Of a DNA stretch of 21,195 nucleotides, positions 9,951 to 21,195 are shown one piece after another (within the stretch, counting starts at the first letter, position 1; every line of letters begins with the position of its first letter). This stretch comes from a virus. The stretch is from the IMG/VR virus record IMGVR_UViG_3300035670_001413, positions 1-21,195 of that record, one strand, 5' to 3'. The notes under the pieces were generated by a model. The model saw only the letters and a list, made by a program, of their open reading frames with translations. It was not told the DNA's origin and did not search any database. The position numbers and the translations under genes are program-made.

Positions 9951-11036
9951 TCAAAAATCTAGTCGATCATTCTTTTTGTGGGATAAAGCTAAAATGATAA
10001 CGCATAAATATGAAAGCTGAATTGAATGAAAAGTAAAATTCCCGTAGCAGTTAAAAATAATCCCAAATATTGAAGCTATTAAAATTCTATTATTTTGGTA
10101 TTTTATTATTTGATAAAAAAGATAAGATACTAAACTAAGCCCTAGCAAACCAAAATCATAGTAGCATTCTAAAATCTCTGAATGAGCATTCCTAAAAATA
10201 ACTCCCATCTCTGGTAAAAATGTTTGATGGAAAAACATAGCAAAATGCCCTAAGCCATTACCAAGAAGATAGTTATCATTATTTTTTATAATTGCTTCCC
10301 ATACTGGGTAACGCCCATTATCTAAATTGTTGGGGAACCCAAAAATAAGAAACAAAATTGCAGGAATTAACCAAGCTAAAAACAAAGCTTTTTTTGGTAT
10401 TTTATTTTCTCTTCTTGCCATAAAAACTGTTAACACAAAAAGAAAAGTGGCTACTGGTAAATCACTTGTTTCTATCGTTGCAAACATCGCAAAAGGGAGG
10501 AATATAATCCACCAGGAGTTAAAAAGAAATGCACTTGAAATCGCAATATAAGCCCCAGACAAGTTAGGTTGATTTAAACTACCACTGGCAAAAGTTTTAG
10601 TTAATGGAGAACTTAATCCTAATTTAAAAGCATTTAAAATAAAATTATAATTATCAAAATCTAAACTTTCACCTAAACACCAAAAACTCTCAATAACACA
10701 TGATAAAGCAATAAAATGGAACAATATTTTTCTTCTAATATAACTTTTTGAAACAATCACAAAAAGCAATATCATCATTGATACCGCTTGAAACTGAGTC
10801 CAGAAATAAATTTGGGCAAAAATTTCAGTATTTAAATAAGCAAAAATTAGTAAGAAAATTAACCCAAAAAATATTTCAGCTCTAATTTTAAATTTAGGTT
10901 TATAAAAAAATACTGTCAAAAAAATGACAAGATAAATGAATATTTCTTTTGCTGGCTTAAACGCAGAAATAAAAGGATCAAGCCTAATAACAAAATGGGC
11001 CAGGAGTAACCCTAGCCCAAGTATTAATGTCACCAT
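9951..11036 (-). CDS. O-antigen polymerase/ligase-like membrane protein (Wzy_C superfamily)
   Basis: 361 residues with about ten hydrophobic helices. Motifs of the Wzy/WaaL/PglL superfamily are present: SGSLNQPNLSG (151-161), the periplasmic-loop signature NGRYPVWE (240-247), GNGLGHF (259-265) and AHSEILE (284-290). The H of AHSE and the R of NGRYPVWE correspond to conserved functional positions in this superfamily. Such proteins polymerise or transfer lipid-linked glycans in the periplasm. In phages, Wzy-like proteins can alter host O-antigen linkage (for example serotype conversion by Pseudomonas phage D3). The ATG overlaps the upstream stop (TAATG) with no ribosome site, so it is translationally coupled to the signal-peptide protein. 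It is unusual to find it in the middle of a head-tail operon. Polymerase, ligase and protein O-oligosaccharyltransferase cannot be separated here. Confidence 0.8.
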   Translation of the reverse strand: MVTLILGLGLLLAHFVIRLDPFISAFKPAKEIFIYLVIFLTVFFYKPKFKIRAEIFFGLIFLLIFAYLNTEIFAQIYFWTQFQAVSMMILLFVIVSKSYIRRKILFHFIALSCVIESFWCLGESLDFDNYNFILNAFKLGLSSPLTKTFASGSLNQPNLSGAYIAISSAFLFNSWWIIFLPFAMFATIETSDLPVATFLFVLTVFMARRENKIPKKALFLAWLIPAILFLIFGFPNNLDNGRYPVWEAIIKNNDNYLLGNGLGHFAMFFHQTFLPEMGVIFRNAHSEILECYYDFGLLGLSLVSYLFYQIIKYQNNRILIASIFGIIFNCYGNFTFHSIQLSYLCVIILALSHKKNDRLDF

Positions 11037-13546: not shown

Positions 13547-15515
13547 TCATAGCTCCTGATTGTTGTAATTGCTGAAATTGGTTCAGCTCATCTTTAGTTA
13601 GTTGTTCTGGTTGGTATGTTCCTTTCAATAATAACAATTGATTTTGCATTTCGGCAAGTTGAGCGTCTTTATCGTTTCTCGCTTGAACCATTTCTTTTAT
13701 TTTTTCTTTATTTGGAAGTCTTTGGGCAAGTTCTAAGAACTCATCAAAAGTTATCGCTTGTTGCTGAACAAAAGACATATAAAGAGCGTTAAGAGCACTT
13801 GAATCAACACCAATTAAACTTGATTCATTTATCTGAGCTTCAAACTCTAAATTAGATAAATCAAATTCACTAAAAATTATTTCTTCATTAGGAAATTCTT
13901 TTTCATTTATTTGGAGTAGTTTGTCGTATGGGTAATATTGCAAAATTAAAGATGCTACTAAAAAAATAGTTCTCTTAGTTGAATGTCTTTCAATGTTTCT
14001 TTCTTTAAGTCTTATTCGTCCTAGAGCTTGTTGCTGTAATTTCTCAATAGAAAAACCCGATTGATTAGGGTGCATGGTTTTACCTTGAGAAACTTCATTA
14101 ATGCCAGAAATTTCATTAATAGATTGCTTTCTTCTGTCCACAAACGCAGTAATTTGAGGGGAGGTCTGCCCTGGTTGCATATAGTTTATATCCCCATCTT
14201 CGATGATATAAATTTCCCCATCTTCATTAGTAATATCATCTTTGGTTAACCCTGTAGATTTATCAACTTTGATTGCTGGATTTGCTACTTTTTTAAGCCC
14301 CTTGTACTCTTTGTAAAGCATTTCACTTGCTAATTTTTGGGAATCAAGTAAATTTCTAACTTCACTAAATCCATACGGCCCATCATCTCGGTAACAATAA
14401 TATGCTACCAAAGGAATAGTTGCGTGATCGTCTTTAGATTCCCCGTCATAAAGAATTATATTATTAACTGATTCAATACATCTTATAGCTTTTTTATATT
14501 TTAAAGTTTCACCATTAGGGTTTTCTTTTATAAGTGTATTGTGAACGTCAATATGAGACATAAGAAGTTTGTATTGAGCATAAACTGGAATAAGTTCTTC
14601 TGATTGAGAGAAAAATTGTTCTATAATTTCTTCTGGCATTTCAGCACTTAACCCAAATTGTTGAAGTAATTCATTAACTTTTTGGAAGTGGTTTTCAATA
14701 TGAGCTTTATGATCTTGGTCAACTTCCACATCAGGAGCTTCGCCATTTTGTAATGATTTCATTTCCTCAAGTAATTCTTCTTGAGTCTGTTCTTCTGGTA
14801 TTTTAACTTTGGAGTAGTCCCTAACGTAAGTTTTAACCAGCTTTAAAATATCTTTGTCATAGTATGGTGTTGGCTTTTTTCTGCCAGATTTACCGCCTAA
14901 ATCTTTTGTTTCAAATCCTTCTTTATAATCTGAATGATCGTCCCAAGATGTTTCTTCTTTTTCTAAGTCCTCAGCAAAGTTTTTATAATTTATTTTTAGC
15001 CAATCTTTAGTCCTCTTAAGTTCTAACCTAACTTTAAAAAGATCCTCAATATTTTGAGTTTCCCCTGAAAGATAAACTTGACGCCAATCAAGTCTTTCCC
15101 CCATGATTCTACCTTCACCATCGTTGGCATTATGGTCATAATACCAGTGGATATAGCTTGGAGCTGATATAACAGACTTCCTTACGGCCATCTCAAGTTT
15201 ACCAGAATAGTCTTGATCGTTTAAAACTTGCTCAATACTTTTATTAATAACTGCTACAAGCCCCTTAGATTGCGGGTTGCTTGAAGCTATAACCCCTGAT
15301 GGCATTCCATCAGTAAGCATTGCTGTTTCAGCTTCTACGATTGGGAAAACAAAATTTTCATAAGGTTTTCTACCTGTGGAATCATTTTTCCAAATAGAAC
15401 CATAATAAGCATCTTCTTCATTTTTCCAGTTCTGTTCAAATTGTGATCTGTACTTTTTTAAATCAGACTTTATATTTTTAATAAGACTAAGTGTTTTTGA
15501 ATTTTCATCTTTCAT
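13539..15515 (-). CDS. Portal protein
   Basis: I start at the ATG at 15515 (658 residues, AAAAGG about 8 nt upstream) rather than the TTG one codon earlier. The N-terminal third has FEQNWKNEEDAYYGSIWKND, then KPYENFVFPIVEAETAMLTD, then DYSGKLEMAVRKSVISAPSY with HWYYD, a pattern characteristic of P22-type podovirus portals. Later come HATIPLVAYYCYRDDGPYGF, SEVRNLLDSQKLASEMLYKE and a glutamine-rich helix (LQQQALGRIRLKERNIERHS, about 490-510) that fits the stem/crown region. Length agrees with P22-type portals (about 650-730). It forms the dodecameric ring at the capsid vertex that binds terminase during packaging and the adaptor afterwards. An acidic insertion (about 240-330) is less conserved in style. 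Confidence 0.88.
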   Translation of the reverse strand: MKDENSKTLSLIKNIKSDLKKYRSQFEQNWKNEEDAYYGSIWKNDSTGRKPYENFVFPIVEAETAMLTDGMPSGVIASSNPQSKGLVAVINKSIEQVLNDQDYSGKLEMAVRKSVISAPSYIHWYYDHNANDGEGRIMGERLDWRQVYLSGETQNIEDLFKVRLELKRTKDWLKINYKNFAEDLEKEETSWDDHSDYKEGFETKDLGGKSGRKKPTPYYDKDILKLVKTYVRDYSKVKIPEEQTQEELLEEMKSLQNGEAPDVEVDQDHKAHIENHFQKVNELLQQFGLSAEMPEEIIEQFFSQSEELIPVYAQYKLLMSHIDVHNTLIKENPNGETLKYKKAIRCIESVNNIILYDGESKDDHATIPLVAYYCYRDDGPYGFSEVRNLLDSQKLASEMLYKEYKGLKKVANPAIKVDKSTGLTKDDITNEDGEIYIIEDGDINYMQPGQTSPQITAFVDRRKQSINEISGINEVSQGKTMHPNQSGFSIEKLQQQALGRIRLKERNIERHSTKRTIFLVASLILQYYPYDKLLQINEKEFPNEEIIFSEFDLSNLEFEAQINESSLIGVDSSALNALYMSFVQQQAITFDEFLELAQRLPNKEKIKEMVQARNDKDAQLAEMQNQLLLLKGTYQPEQLTKDELNQFQQLQQSGAMNA

Positions 15516-15562
15516 CAAGTAACCTTTTTATGAAGTGTTATTTTTATTTTAGGAGTATTTTT

Positions 15563-15976
15563 ATGAGTATGCAAAACTTTAGATTCCGTTGCCAGAAATG
15601 TCGCCATGAATTTTTAAGAAGAATGAATGTTGAGGATTTTGATAAACAACAATATACTACGGGGTTCTCCTGTTTTGACTGTGGTTTCCCAAAAATGATA
15701 GTTGGTAGAACAATGGCAAAAGTTCAAGATGGATTTAAAGCTGGTTGGCAAAGCAACATAAGAGCTTATTGCGATACCTATTCTCAATACAAAGCCATCT
15801 TAAAAGAACGCGGGCTTGAAGAAATTGGAAATGAAGAATTTAAAAAAACTGAGTATAAAACACAATACTTCGACAAAGATATGATGGAAAAACTCGTCAA
15901 ACAAGGAGTAAGTTTCACAGGTCAAGAAATTGAAGCTTTAGAAAATGGTAAAATGCAACACCTAGGGATCTATTAA
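15563..15976 (+). CDS. Zinc-ribbon protein encoded on the opposite strand, unknown function
   Basis: Start chosen at ATG 15563 because AGGAG lies 7 nt upstream; an earlier in-frame ATG has no ribosome site. The 137-residue product begins MSMQNFRFRCQKC. It has CxxC pairs at C10/C13 and C37/C40 (FSCFDCGFPK), a zinc-ribbon layout, followed by a helical charged part with no recognised motif. Its stop codon overlaps, tail to tail, the stop of the 79-residue membrane protein on the other strand, and its start lies 47 bp from the portal start. It is the only rightward gene in more than 18 kb of leftward genes. It could be a small regulator or an assembly factor; the zinc ribbon alone does not decide this. 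No clear promoter is visible in the 47-bp gap, so its promoter may lie inside the portal gene. Confidence 0.8.
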   Translation: MSMQNFRFRCQKCRHEFLRRMNVEDFDKQQYTTGFSCFDCGFPKMIVGRTMAKVQDGFKAGWQSNIRAYCDTYSQYKAILKERGLEEIGNEEFKKTEYKTQYFDKDMMEKLVKQGVSFTGQEIEALENGKMQHLGIY

Positions 15977-17857: not shown

Positions 17858-18405
17858 TCGACAATTTTAAAATATTTAAAGAATTCTTTTTCGTTAAGAG
17901 AATATCTAGCCCAGTGAATTTTAGTGGGCTTAAAGTCGGATTCTTGAGGGAGGAAACCTTGTTTTATTTTCCATTCAAGGCGGGAATCAATTTGTTCTTC
18001 TGGTTTAATTTCTACGTCAACAAAAAAAGTATAGATATCTTTTTGCCTGGATTCATCAAAGTATTTTTTTACGGGGTATTCTTTGAACATATCAACTCTC
18101 ATCCCTGCACTTGGCACTGATTGAACTTGCTGACATTTTAGATTGCAAGAACTAGCTTCCATTTCATTAAGTTTAGACATTTCTGGATCACTGTCATTAA
18201 GAAGCTTTCTTTGATATTGGAATTGCAAAAGTTCTTTATATTTATTTTTATCTTTTTCAAATTTAGCTTTTTGGATAGCTATATTTTTTTTAAGTTTTTC
18301 TAAATCAAATCTTTCTTTAACGGCTCTCGCTTGCTCTTGAAGTAATTGCATAACTTCTTTAAATTCTGCATTTGTATTTTTCTTCTCTTCAATTACTTCA
18401 CTCAT
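17854..18405 (-). CDS. Coiled-coil protein between the terminase subunits, unknown function
   Basis: 183 residues, overlapping both neighbours by 4 nt (ATGA), so it is translated with the terminase pair. Residues 1-75 form a long charged helix (LLQEQARAVKERFDLEKLKK). A short cysteine pair follows (SSCNLKCQQV, about 86-95). The C-terminal half is beta-like (YTFFVDVEIKPEEQIDSRLE, then KIHWARYSLNEKEFFKYF). I recognise no family. Its place suggests a packaging accessory protein, but the sequence does not prove a role. Confidence 0.8.
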   Translation of the reverse strand: MSEVIEEKKNTNAEFKEVMQLLQEQARAVKERFDLEKLKKNIAIQKAKFEKDKNKYKELLQFQYQRKLLNDSDPEMSKLNEMEASSCNLKCQQVQSVPSAGMRVDMFKEYPVKKYFDESRQKDIYTFFVDVEIKPEEQIDSRLEWKIKQGFLPQESDFKPTKIHWARYSLNEKEFFKYFKIVD

Positions 18406-18821
18406 TCAATCACTTCCTTTTTCTTTTCCTTAACTAAATCTTCTATCGTCCTAACGACTGTATGCTCGACCTTTGATTGATCCCCATAAATTTTATGGAA
18501 ACGCGTTTTTAAAGCAAATATCAAACAAGCGGTATCGATTAATTTTGGGTCTAATCCTTCGGCTTCAACACCAAAAGCTTTCACCCGTAATCTTTTTTCA
18601 AACCACTTCAAGCCTTCTGCTTCTCCTAAAACTCTTGCTTCTTTAAACTCAGGGTATCTTTTCAACCATTCATAAAGTGTGTCTGGATTTACTTTTATCT
18701 CACCCGCAAAACTATGAAATGAGTACCCTTCTGACAAGTGCTTGTGGAGCTTGTCTGGGAAGCTGTCTTGCCATTTAGGGCCTACATTTTTATGCTTTTC
18801 TTTTTTATTAATCTCGGTCAT
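18402..18821 (-). CDS. Terminase small subunit
   Basis: I choose ATG 18821 (139 residues, MTEINKKEKHKNVGPKWQDS). The longer frame starting at TTG 18857 overlaps a good -35 element and has no spaced ribosome site. Residues about 25-75 hold a helix-turn-helix-like region (SEGYSFHSFAGEIKVNPDTL, then YEWLKRYPEFKEARV), as in DNA-recognition domains of small terminases. The rest is helical and charged (KWFEKRLRVKAFG; KEKKKEVIE at the end). Its length suits small terminases, and it sits two genes ahead of the large subunit. It would recognise the packaging site and load the motor. No ribosome site precedes this ATG (see the promoter entry). Confidence 0.85.
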   Translation of the reverse strand: MTEINKKEKHKNVGPKWQDSFPDKLHKHLSEGYSFHSFAGEIKVNPDTLYEWLKRYPEFKEARVLGEAEGLKWFEKRLRVKAFGVEAEGLDPKLIDTACLIFALKTRFHKIYGDQSKVEHTVVRTIEDLVKEKKKEVIE

Positions 18822-18827
18822 ATATAG

Positions 18828-18857
18828 ATAATATGAGAGTGAATTGCAGTTAGTCAA
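18828..18857 (-). promoter_or_regulatory. Sigma70-like promoter for the terminase/virion operon
   Basis: On the - strand, TTGACT (18857-18852), an 18-bp spacer and TATTAT (18833-18828) form a good match to the bacterial housekeeping promoter. The expected start is about 7 nt past the -10, at or within a base or two of the ATG at 18821, so the first message may be almost leaderless. A host-type promoter suggests transcription by host polymerase. Confidence 0.65.
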
Positions 18858-19305: not shown

Positions 19306-19318
19306 ACAAACCCTTTTA

Positions 19319-19333
19319 GCGTCATCACGACGC
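19319..19333 (-). other. Short GC-rich hairpin before the membrane-protein gene
   Basis: GCGTC (19319-19323) and GACGC (19329-19333) form a 5-bp stem with a 5-nt loop in an AT-rich gap, a few bases upstream of the ribosome site for the 125-residue protein. No T-tract follows on either strand at the right distance, so it is not a normal terminator. It may be a processing or stability element, or chance. Confidence 0.4.
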
Positions 19334-19343
19334 AGTTAAATTT

Positions 19344-19496
19344 TTATTTCTGTCTTATCTTTCTTACTTGAAGATCAATAAGATTTTGGAGACTACCAAA
19401 AACTTCTTTAATCTTCTGGAAATCTTCTTCTTTTATTCTGCAAGTCCTTAACTTCTTTGGGTTAAGAATTTTAGGACGACCAAGTTTATTTTTCAT
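19344..19496 (-). CDS. 50-residue small basic protein, possible DNA binder
   Basis: The product begins MKNKLGRPKILNPKKLRTCR and continues KEEDFQKIKEVFG and SLQNLIDLQVRKIRQK. A GRPK start, then a short strand (LRTCRI), then a helix (KEEDFQKIKEVFG) and a second helix is the layout of short ribbon-helix-helix proteins, so a small transcriptional regulator is plausible. It overlaps the upstream 52-residue gene by 4 nt (ATGA), a strong sign of a coupled real gene. Not confirmed by any search. Confidence 0.65.
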   Translation of the reverse strand: MKNKLGRPKILNPKKLRTCRIKEEDFQKIKEVFGSLQNLIDLQVRKIRQK

Positions 19497-19651
19497 AAAT
19501 CCGCCCAATAGGATAACGCCATATCAAAATCTTCCTTATTTGGGCATTCCAACTCAAAAGTTAATAGAAAGTTCAATAATCCTTCTGATTGAAACTCAAA
19601 TATTTTTGGTTTTGACCCCTTAAATCTGATCGCTAAAATAAATATATTCAT
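19493..19651 (-). CDS. 52-residue small protein, unknown function
   Basis: ATG at 19651 with AAAGG about 6 nt upstream; the stop overlaps the next gene's start by 4 nt. The product begins MNIFILAIRFKGSKPKIFEF and ends CPNKEDFDMALSYWADL. It is soluble, with alternating beta- and helix-like stretches. No family is recognised. It is the first gene of the leftward arm behind a plausible promoter (19684-19712), so it may be expressed early. Confidence 0.65.
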   Translation of the reverse strand: MNIFILAIRFKGSKPKIFEFQSEGLLNFLLTFELECPNKEDFDMALSYWADL

Positions 19652-19683
19652 AATTTACCTTTTGCTATTGTTGCACTTAATCA

Positions 19684-19712
19684 ATTATCGTCCTTTTTCA
19701 ATTAAATGTATA
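19684..19712 (-). promoter_or_regulatory. Probable leftward sigma70-like promoter
   Basis: On the - strand TATACA (19712-19707) is followed by a 17-bp spacer and GATAAT (19689-19684). The -10 is a good match and the -35 a moderate one (4 of 6). The expected start, about 19677, leaves a leader of about 26 nt containing the ribosome site of the 52-residue gene. Confidence 0.5.
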
Positions 19713-19765
19713 TACAAATAATGCTATGTGTGAAAATATTTTATGAATTTAGAATTAATTCAATG

Positions 19766-19774
19766 TGTTATGAT
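19766..19774 (+). promoter_or_regulatory. Possible rightward extended -10 promoter
   Basis: TGTTATGAT matches the extended -10 consensus TGnTATAAT at all but one position. There is no good -35 element. It would start transcription near 19781, heading into the small unit that ends at the terminator at 20008-20040. Confidence 0.35.
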
Positions 19775-19891
19775 GCTATGAGTTTGTGCATCGCCCGACG
19801 ACTCCCCCCCATTCTTATGCACATCATCACAATACTTGAGCATCCCTCCTACTATTTACAGATTATTAGTTTTTTGGTAAAATTTGGGCTT

Positions 19892-20011
19892 ATGAAATAT
19901 CAATTCAACATTAATTTCGAAGAAATAAGCCAATTTGAAGCTAATGTTATCCATTTAGGTATATTCAGAGTTAAAATTCATATCAAAAAACTTTTCGCCA
20001 ACGGAAAATGA
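19892..20011 (+). CDS. Possible 39-residue protein
   Basis: ATG at 19892; the product begins MKYQFNINFEEISQFEANVI and ends IHIKKLFANGK. A longer frame open from 19706 reads through the C-rich hairpin and lacks a ribosome site, so the shorter start is preferred, though its own site (GGG about 4 nt upstream) is weak. The stop lies exactly at the base of the terminator stem. Composition resembles a real small phage protein, but this could be a non-coding RNA instead. Confidence 0.35.
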   Translation: MKYQFNINFEEISQFEANVIHLGIFRVKIHIKKLFANGK

Positions 20012-20040
20012 TGAAGCCCTAAGCCCCTCATCATTTTTTT
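20008..20040 (+). terminator. Intrinsic transcription terminator (rightward)
   Basis: ATGATGA (20008-20014) pairs with TCATCAT (20028-20034), with one further G-C pair past a mismatch and a loop rich in CCC. Seven Ts follow (20034-20040). It ends the small rightward unit before the helicase leader. Confidence 0.7.
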
Positions 20041-20124
20041 ATATATAGTATGTGACAGTAATAATATATATACATGGATATCCGAAGCTTAAAATAAATT
20101 AAAAATATTTTACAAATAACTTTT

Positions 20125-20243
20125 AATGAAGTAATTTTTTCACACTTCATTTAGGTACTTCTCACCCATGGGACTAGGTGCTTAGAAGAAGAAATTTTTC
20201 TAAGTAACTAGGAGAGGTTGAGATGCACCTAAATGAAGTAATT
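20125..20243 (+). promoter_or_regulatory. Structured leader of the helicase gene with two exclusive folds
   Basis: Segment B (20144-20156, ACTTCATTTAGGT) is a perfect 13-nt reverse complement of segment C (20227-20239), which is codons 2-6 of the helicase. B can also pair over 8 bp with segment A (20125-20132); A and C share the 12-mer AATGAAGTAATT (20125-20136, 20232-20243). Inside the B:C helix, the ATG sits in a 4x4 internal loop, CTCACC (20161-20166) pairs with GG-T-TGAG (20216-20222, T218 bulged), and a 17-bp hairpin (20174-20211, one mismatch, GAAA tetraloop 20191-20194) takes in the edge of the ribosome site. This could be an RNA switch or attenuator, or a DNA origin-type inverted repeat. 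The upstream stretch 20041-20124 is AT-rich, with no convincing promoter match. Confidence 0.6.
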
Positions 20244-21195
20244 CAAAGAATTTTCCAAAATCTACTAAATTCAGAAAAACTTTCAATTTATCAACATAAG
20301 AATAGCAAACAAGAATTTTCCTTTTTGTTTTTAGGACAAAAATTCAACTTACAAAGTTTCGTAATTTTTTTACAGAAGCCTGATAATTTGGAGCTATTCC
20401 CTGAAGAAATTCACCTAACCATTTTAAAGAAAAAAATAGATTTTTCTAATGCTTTAAAAGAGGAGTTAAACAATCTCATAACCCAATTTAAAGAAAATTT
20501 ACCTGAAGAAGTTGAGGAGAATGAAATGCACCCAATCCTTAAAGGCTATAACCTACAAGTTTTTATTGATATGAAAGATAGCTCAAAAAAATTTGTAATG
20601 AATATGGAATCCAATCAAGAAGCCCATATAAGTTACTCATCCTTAAAAGAGTTACTTAGTCCTCATGACTTTATGGCTTTTAGAAAAGCAAAACCATTCA
20701 AAGAATGCCAAATTACTTATGACCCTTATAATTTAGAAAAATTTAGGGAGTTTAAAATTGATGGGATACTTAGTCCGTTTGTTGAAATAAATTTCTATAA
20801 CCCCCCTAATTGGAGAAAAAATCCTCAAACCCCTACATACCCTCCATTATTTCAAAGGTATTTTGAATTTTTCTTTCCAGTTAAAGAAGAAAGAGAAATT
20901 GTTTTCCAATGGATAAAACACGCAATACTGCATAGGGTTTCTTACATACTTCTTCTAGTTGGTCGGAAAGGTGTAGGTAAAAATATTTTTGCAGAACATA
21001 TAATAAAATCTTTAGTAGGGGAAAAGGAATTTGCAAAAACCCAAAAAGGGTTTTTTACTGGGCGATTTCAAGATATTTTAGAGAATAATAGAATTATTTT
21101 TATTGATGAAATTGAGGCAAAAGAAGCCGAGGCAAAAAAAGATTTAAAAAGACTTCCAAATCATACCCAAGGCATTGAGAAAAAAGGAAGGGACG
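20223..21195 (+). CDS. Superfamily 3 (D5-like) helicase, probable replication protein; C-terminus beyond the window
   Basis: The 324 visible residues start at ATG 20223 with AGGAG 8 nt upstream and are open to the right edge. Walker A is GRKGVGKN (247-254), and Walker B with the following helix is RIIFIDEIEAKEAEA (290-304). The layout KxGVGKN, then about 40 residues later IFIDE, is that of SF3 helicases found in phage and plasmid primase-helicases (D5/DUF5906 group). Residues 1-230 are helical and charged, with no primase metal motif that I can see, and about 180-222 (FVEINFYNPPNWRKNPQTPT, then PLFQRYFEFFFPV) resembles the linker preceding the ATPase in that group. It would unwind DNA at the phage origin. 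The direction is opposite to the structural operon, so this is the start of the replication arm. Confidence 0.88.
   Translation, partial: MHLNEVIQRIFQNLLNSEKLSIYQHKNSKQEFSFLFLGQKFNLQSFVIFLQKPDNLELFPEEIHLTILKKKIDFSNALKEELNNLITQFKENLPEEVEENEMHPILKGYNLQVFIDMKDSSKKFVMNMESNQEAHISYSSLKELLSPHDFMAFRKAKPFKECQITYDPYNLEKFREFKIDGILSPFVEINFYNPPNWRKNPQTPTYPPLFQRYFEFFFPVKEEREIVFQWIKHAILHRVSYILLLVGRKGVGKNIFAEHIIKSLVGEKEFAKTQKGFFTGRFQDILENNRIIFIDEIEAKEAEAKKDLKRLPNHTQGIEKKGRD

Follow-up and report, generated by a model that had tools for sequence, protein, structure and literature searches.

The phage T4 genes e, soc, 49 and I-TevI carry start-site hairpins in which the Shine-Dalgarno sequence and/or the AUG is sequestered, and the late transcripts of gene e are made without the 5' part (PMC3014915). 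The T4 replication proteins gp32 and gp43 are subject to autogenous translational operators (PMC3014915). In the lambda cIII leader, an inhibitory structure is alleviated by RNase III binding (PMC2777011), while in the leader of the MS2 maturation gene a short hairpin in the nascent RNA permits translation (PMC6071253).

The locus analyzed here lies near the end of a 21,195-nucleotide stretch of viral DNA (hereafter the window, meaning that stretch at its full length) from a phage that encodes TerS, TerL, portal and major capsid proteins. At the start of its replicative helicase gene is a 96-nt imperfect hairpin, which resembles the T4 e, soc, 49 and I-TevI structures in that the Shine-Dalgarno sequence and/or AUG of a DNA phage gene lies in a helix with an upstream 5' arm, an arrangement that could delay translation. 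It differs from them in the gene concerned, a replication helicase, in its much greater length and in a 5' arm that contains no recognizable late promoter. As in lambda cIII, the start region of a phage mRNA is structured and includes a long helix to which an enzyme of the RNase III type could bind. The genes for gp32 and gp43 are likewise replication genes with structured RNA at the start or close to it, but their operators sit upstream of the start and take the form of small hairpins or a pseudoknot. The hairpin is plausibly functional and of a known general kind, and the best reading, to which we give about even credence, is that it is a translation-limiting structure in the mRNA at the helicase start. 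If it does limit translation in cells, a replication helicase would join the few phage genes whose timing depends on structure at the start site, in this case in an uncultured phage from a poorly studied group; if the repeats associated with it are protein sites, they would indicate where the control region or the origin of the phage lies. Neither reading would alone change the field.

The inverted repeat at the helicase start

The product of the helicase gene matched Pfam family PF19263 (1.7e-9, 38.8 bits against a cut-off of 27.6) and PHROG 1156, DNA primase (9e-13), and its translation contains the Walker A motif GRKGVGKN. The best-known remote match, obtained by tblastn against phages and plasmids, was a plasmid protein with 27% identity, and the ATPase has a relative in the primase-helicase of a small Klebsiella plasmid. 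A TAA stop in the helicase frame at 20205-20207, just upstream of the ATG, makes position 20223 the first usable ATG of that frame. Features of the region are listed in Table 1.

Table 1. Positions of features at and upstream of the helicase start, numbered from the first letter of the window
Feature	Positions	Strand	Description
Terminator-like stem-loop with T run	20003..20040	+	12-bp stem, -11.5 kcal/mol; 3' arm runs into TTTTTTT
Repeat A, AATGAAGTAATT	20125..20136	+	Recurs exactly (12 nt, same orientation) at 20232-20243; nt 1-8 able to pair with B
96-nt imperfect hairpin	20144..20239	+	Helices: 13-bp outer, 5-bp middle, 4-bp and 11-bp inner
Segment B	20144..20156	+	5' arm of outer helix; 13 perfect pairs with 20227-20239
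Shine-Dalgarno sequence, AGGAGAGG	20210..20217	+	In hairpin 3' arm; partly paired (from the sequence and pairing probabilities)
Helicase gene, DUF5906 / SF3-type P-loop ATPase	20223..21194	+	Pfam and PHROG matches; continues past the end of the window
Segment C	20227..20239	+	3' arm of outer helix, in codons 2-6
Second copy of AATGAAGTAATT	20232..20243	+	Overlaps C and extends 4 nt past the helix

The outer helix is formed by segments B (ACTTCATTTAGGT, 20144-20156) and C (ACCTAAATGAAGT, 20227-20239), which pair over 13 bp with no mismatch, C lying inside codons 2-6, as a preliminary description of this DNA had claimed. Inward of it are single mismatches flanking the ATG and a 5-bp helix (20160-20164/20219-20223), followed by 2 bp, an internal loop, 4 bp, a 2x2 loop and an 11-bp helix capped by a GAAA (GNRA) loop at 20191-20194. 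The same description had a GNRA-capped inner hairpin of 17 continuous base pairs; the cap stands, whereas the pairing is broken by the 2x2 internal loop into 11 bp and 4 bp. Its placement of the ATG in an internal loop proved wrong, for the A pairs with U20160 (~96%) and the G with C20158 (~79%), leaving the U alone open. The 3' arm contains the Shine-Dalgarno sequence, the ATG and codons 2-6; the internal loop leaves part of AGGAGAGG open, and the start site is sequestered in a stable helix to the extent that the Shine-Dalgarno sequence is partly paired and the A and G of the AUG are paired.

The thermodynamic fold of 20100-20260 that had been proposed earlier was run and confirmed a stable structure (-48.1 kcal/mol, z = -6.5), none of 200 shuffles being equally stable; a second estimate of z was -6.4. 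No other inverted repeat found within 200 bp in the window is as long as this hairpin, whose arms are 24 nt (88%), and after GC correction it ranked second among 25,276 windows of 120 nt drawn from the phage and its relatives. Among the 21 gene starts in the window, only the helicase start had a z below -3 (runner-up -2.7). In a repeat run, the TIR z of the helicase start was -5.6, and values below -5 occurred in 1 of 314 TIRs of relatives. A comparison with synonymous codons, which is a weak test, placed the native sequence 16th of 192 in stability. The 96-nt inverted repeat is real and not a chance fold, and the earlier claim that an unusually stable structure lies over the site of ribosome binding and the beginning of the helicase gene is supported.

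Transcript extent and translation of the helicase message

The terminator-like stem at 20003-20040 suggests that the helicase gene has its own promoter within ~20041-20144. No strong sigma-70-like promoter was found in 20041-20200, where the best matches were weak (at most 9/12) against a consensus that may not be that of the phage or its host; one weak sigma-70-like candidate would start transcripts at ~20144, downstream of A. Likewise, no noteworthy sigma-70-like promoter was found inside the 5' arm of the hairpin or following it, with the reservation that the promoter types of phage and host may differ from sigma-70. For transcripts starting at 20165-20180, that is, without the 5' arm, the ATG was predicted to be unpaired with probabilities of 0.6-0.9, compared with 0.04/1.0/0.21 when the arm was present.

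The wider setting is a divergent AT-rich intergenic region of ~900 bp (19306-20222) with terminator-like stems at 19319-19333 and 20003-20040. It also holds a promoter-like TTTACA-17-TAAAAT at 19855-19883, ahead of a possible 39-aa ORF (19893-20011).

If the hairpin limits translation, transcripts carrying the 5' arm would fold once C emerges, the folded start region would strongly lower 30S loading, and the reduced loading would keep the replicative helicase low or delay it. Relief could be provided by a trans factor, by a nuclease that acts on double strands (RNase III, for instance) through cleavage or binding, or by transcripts initiating downstream of the 5' arm. Repeat A would be unnecessary for such a mechanism. 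The placement of the element favors an RNA role because the whole translation start region sits in one (3') arm. Folded as RNA, the coding strand reached -43.6 kcal/mol and the opposite strand -38.5 kcal/mol, a gap that rests on a few G-U pairs, and a stronger predicted fold of the coding strand is what would be expected if RNA pairing matters. Folded as single-stranded DNA, the two strands gave -22.7 and -21.3 kcal/mol (z of -6.2 and -6.0, respectively); since both DNA strands fold about equally, the sequence alone does not single out RNA, and an RNA role and a DNA role (the latter for A and C) could both be possible together.

Repeat A and alternative explanations

Repeat A is a real element. 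The 8-bp A:B alternative pairing claimed for it is present, with AATGAAGT (20125-20132) exactly complementary to ACTTCATT (20144-20151) and an 11-nt loop between them, but the extent of A had been set too short, 12 nt (AATGAAGTAATT) being shared with the C region instead of 8. In shuffled sequences, a 12-nt upstream copy of the C region arose in 0.02% (p ~0.0002), and an 8-nt upstream complement of B alone arose in 3%. Because A and C share the full 12-nt sequence while A:B pairing needs only 8 nt, repeat A is better explained as a DNA-level or DNA-binding repeat than by RNA pairing, and is more likely a separate DNA site.

Initiator-binding repeats adjoin replication genes, as in P4 alpha-type or iteron origins, and the present locus resembles these in that direct repeats without mismatch accompany the gene for an SF3-type helicase in AT-rich surroundings. 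The chief competitor of the translation-limiting reading, which we hold only tentatively, is that the three occurrences of AATGAAGT (forward in A, inverted in B, forward in C) constitute a protein-binding site and that the palindrome is an operator or part of an origin, with the helicase/initiator or a repressor as the binding partner and the RNA fold as a by-product. A DNA-level inverted repeat, which the preliminary description had offered as its alternative, remains live: the identity of A and C continues 4 nt beyond what RNA pairing needs, the two strands fold equally as DNA, a divergent intergenic region (~71% AT) adjoining a replication gene is a typical location for a control region or origin, and the Klebsiella plasmid relative is a primase-helicase. 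In contrast to P4 alpha-type and iteron origins, the window contains two full copies of the 12-mer and no array of several identical direct repeats; further copies of AATGAAGTAATT carry one or two mismatches and lie mostly within genes. The palindrome is moreover mismatched, its 48-nt core is itself folded, unlike a simple operator, and its location over the ribosome site would require a separate reason.

That the palindrome is a recent acquisition or non-functional, for example a hairpin-type insertion or an inverted-duplication scar at the edge of a replication module that was swapped in, appears unlikely. The module does look swapped in, since the TerL relatives searched show no DUF5906 gene and the G002/G005 relatives carry a different replication region, and no relative of the hairpin turned up in the collections searched. 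Set against this are the precise fit of the element to the start signals, the lack of any apparent flanking target duplication, and the finding that the paired arms occur nowhere else in viral contigs apart from one match at the end of a phoH gene, which was recovered by a paired-arm pattern scan and judged chance (fold z -1.3). A MITE-like insertion was rejected, the element being without a target duplication and without other copies.

We regard it as similarly improbable that translation is toggled by two alternative RNA states, A:B and B:C, or that A:B is a metastable delay of the kind seen in the MS2 maturation leader. The upstream complement of B is rare by chance in the shuffles given above, and A:B was predicted at >90% in nascent transcripts until C emerges (20232-20236), so that, as in MS2, a short upstream hairpin is predicted before the long-range inhibitory pairing. 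In folds of the growing transcript, which are equilibrium folds at each length and not a kinetic simulation, B:C fully replaced A:B once C emerged, the Shine-Dalgarno sequence was mostly covered throughout, and exposure in the nascent interval was at most slightly greater with A than without it. In contrast to the leader of the RNA phage, the folds do not predict that nascent A:B would open the ribosome site; a state confined to nascent RNA has its closest parallel in the MS2 maturation gene and is not supported here.

In the full RNA, the forced A:B ensemble was 8.9 kcal/mol less stable, so the two mutually exclusive helices are not of comparable stability, and the unpaired probabilities of the Shine-Dalgarno sequence and ATG were equal within 0.01 under forced A:B and B:C, so the two states do not differ in ribosome-site exposure. 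Three elements persist under forced A:B and keep the exposure unchanged: the inner hairpin, the final 5 bp of B:C and the 20160-20164/20219-20223 helix. Repeat A may, in addition, fall outside the message. The lambda cIII leader is reported to have two balanced conformations; here, by comparison, one fold leads by ~9 kcal/mol, and the start region stays covered under A:B. The on/off switch between A:B and B:C that had been suggested is thus unsupported, and under the equilibrium-fold model A:B cannot serve as a simple on/off switch because the predicted ribosome-site exposure is set by the inner structure. Least credible is a dual element in which the helicase would bind both the AATGAAGTAATT DNA repeats and the hairpin of its own message, balancing replication start with helicase synthesis.

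Relatives and other features of the phage

Searches by tblastn in phages and plasmids returned remote primase-helicases only, with no close helicase homologue and no homologous leader. Scans of viral contigs and genome contigs with helicase peptide patterns found no homologue, and an alignment of the remote helicase relatives contained no stretch conserved enough for scanning. TerL relatives (43-58% identity) were taken from viral contigs, and TerS relatives were also collected. No match to a DUF5906 gene was found in the ~20 TerL relatives searched, many of which are fragments, such that absence is not proven for each. In a distant relative by TerS (G009/L071), TerS and a DUF5906 gene are divergently arranged, as they are in this phage, and the leader of that DUF5906 gene showed no comparable hairpin (z -2.8); the other DUF5906 genes examined had start-site z values between -1.1 and +1.3. 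Because DUF5906 genes elsewhere show start z values of -2.8 to +1.3, the start-site hairpin is not a general trait of DUF5906 helicases. A DNA scan with the C arm gave 51 places, none with a helicase relative, and these were judged to be chance.

The preliminary description had found the element unlike any riboswitch class known to it, and this held in that no Rfam match in the window exceeded the curated score. Sub-threshold Rfam matches over the hairpin were to plant and animal microRNA precursors and were rejected as generic long-hairpin matches.

Several other features were recorded in the course of the survey. Its most extreme fold was a ~130-nt structured leader that ends in a strong intrinsic terminator and precedes an AAA_24 P-loop gene in each of two related phages (L011, 11240-11380, and L008, 15870-16010, both on the minus strand). 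This leader had no Rfam match above threshold and looks like an attenuator or riboswitch-like leader. Among the head genes, a multi-pass membrane protein (window 9951-11036, minus strand; L004 9762-10856) has similarity to Wzy_C / O-antigen ligase, at 6e-12 in L004 and weakly in the window (0.002), and is possibly the product of a surface-modifying gene. Between TerL and portal, and opposite in orientation to the structural genes, the window encodes a conserved protein of ~150 aa with a CxxC zinc-ribbon-like start (15491-15976, plus strand), which is present in most TerL relatives and has no confident family match. The small terminase subunit (18402-18857, minus strand) belongs to PHROG 309, and its best named-phage match is Bdellovibrio phage phi1422 (39%), which hints at a possible Bdellovibrio-like host.
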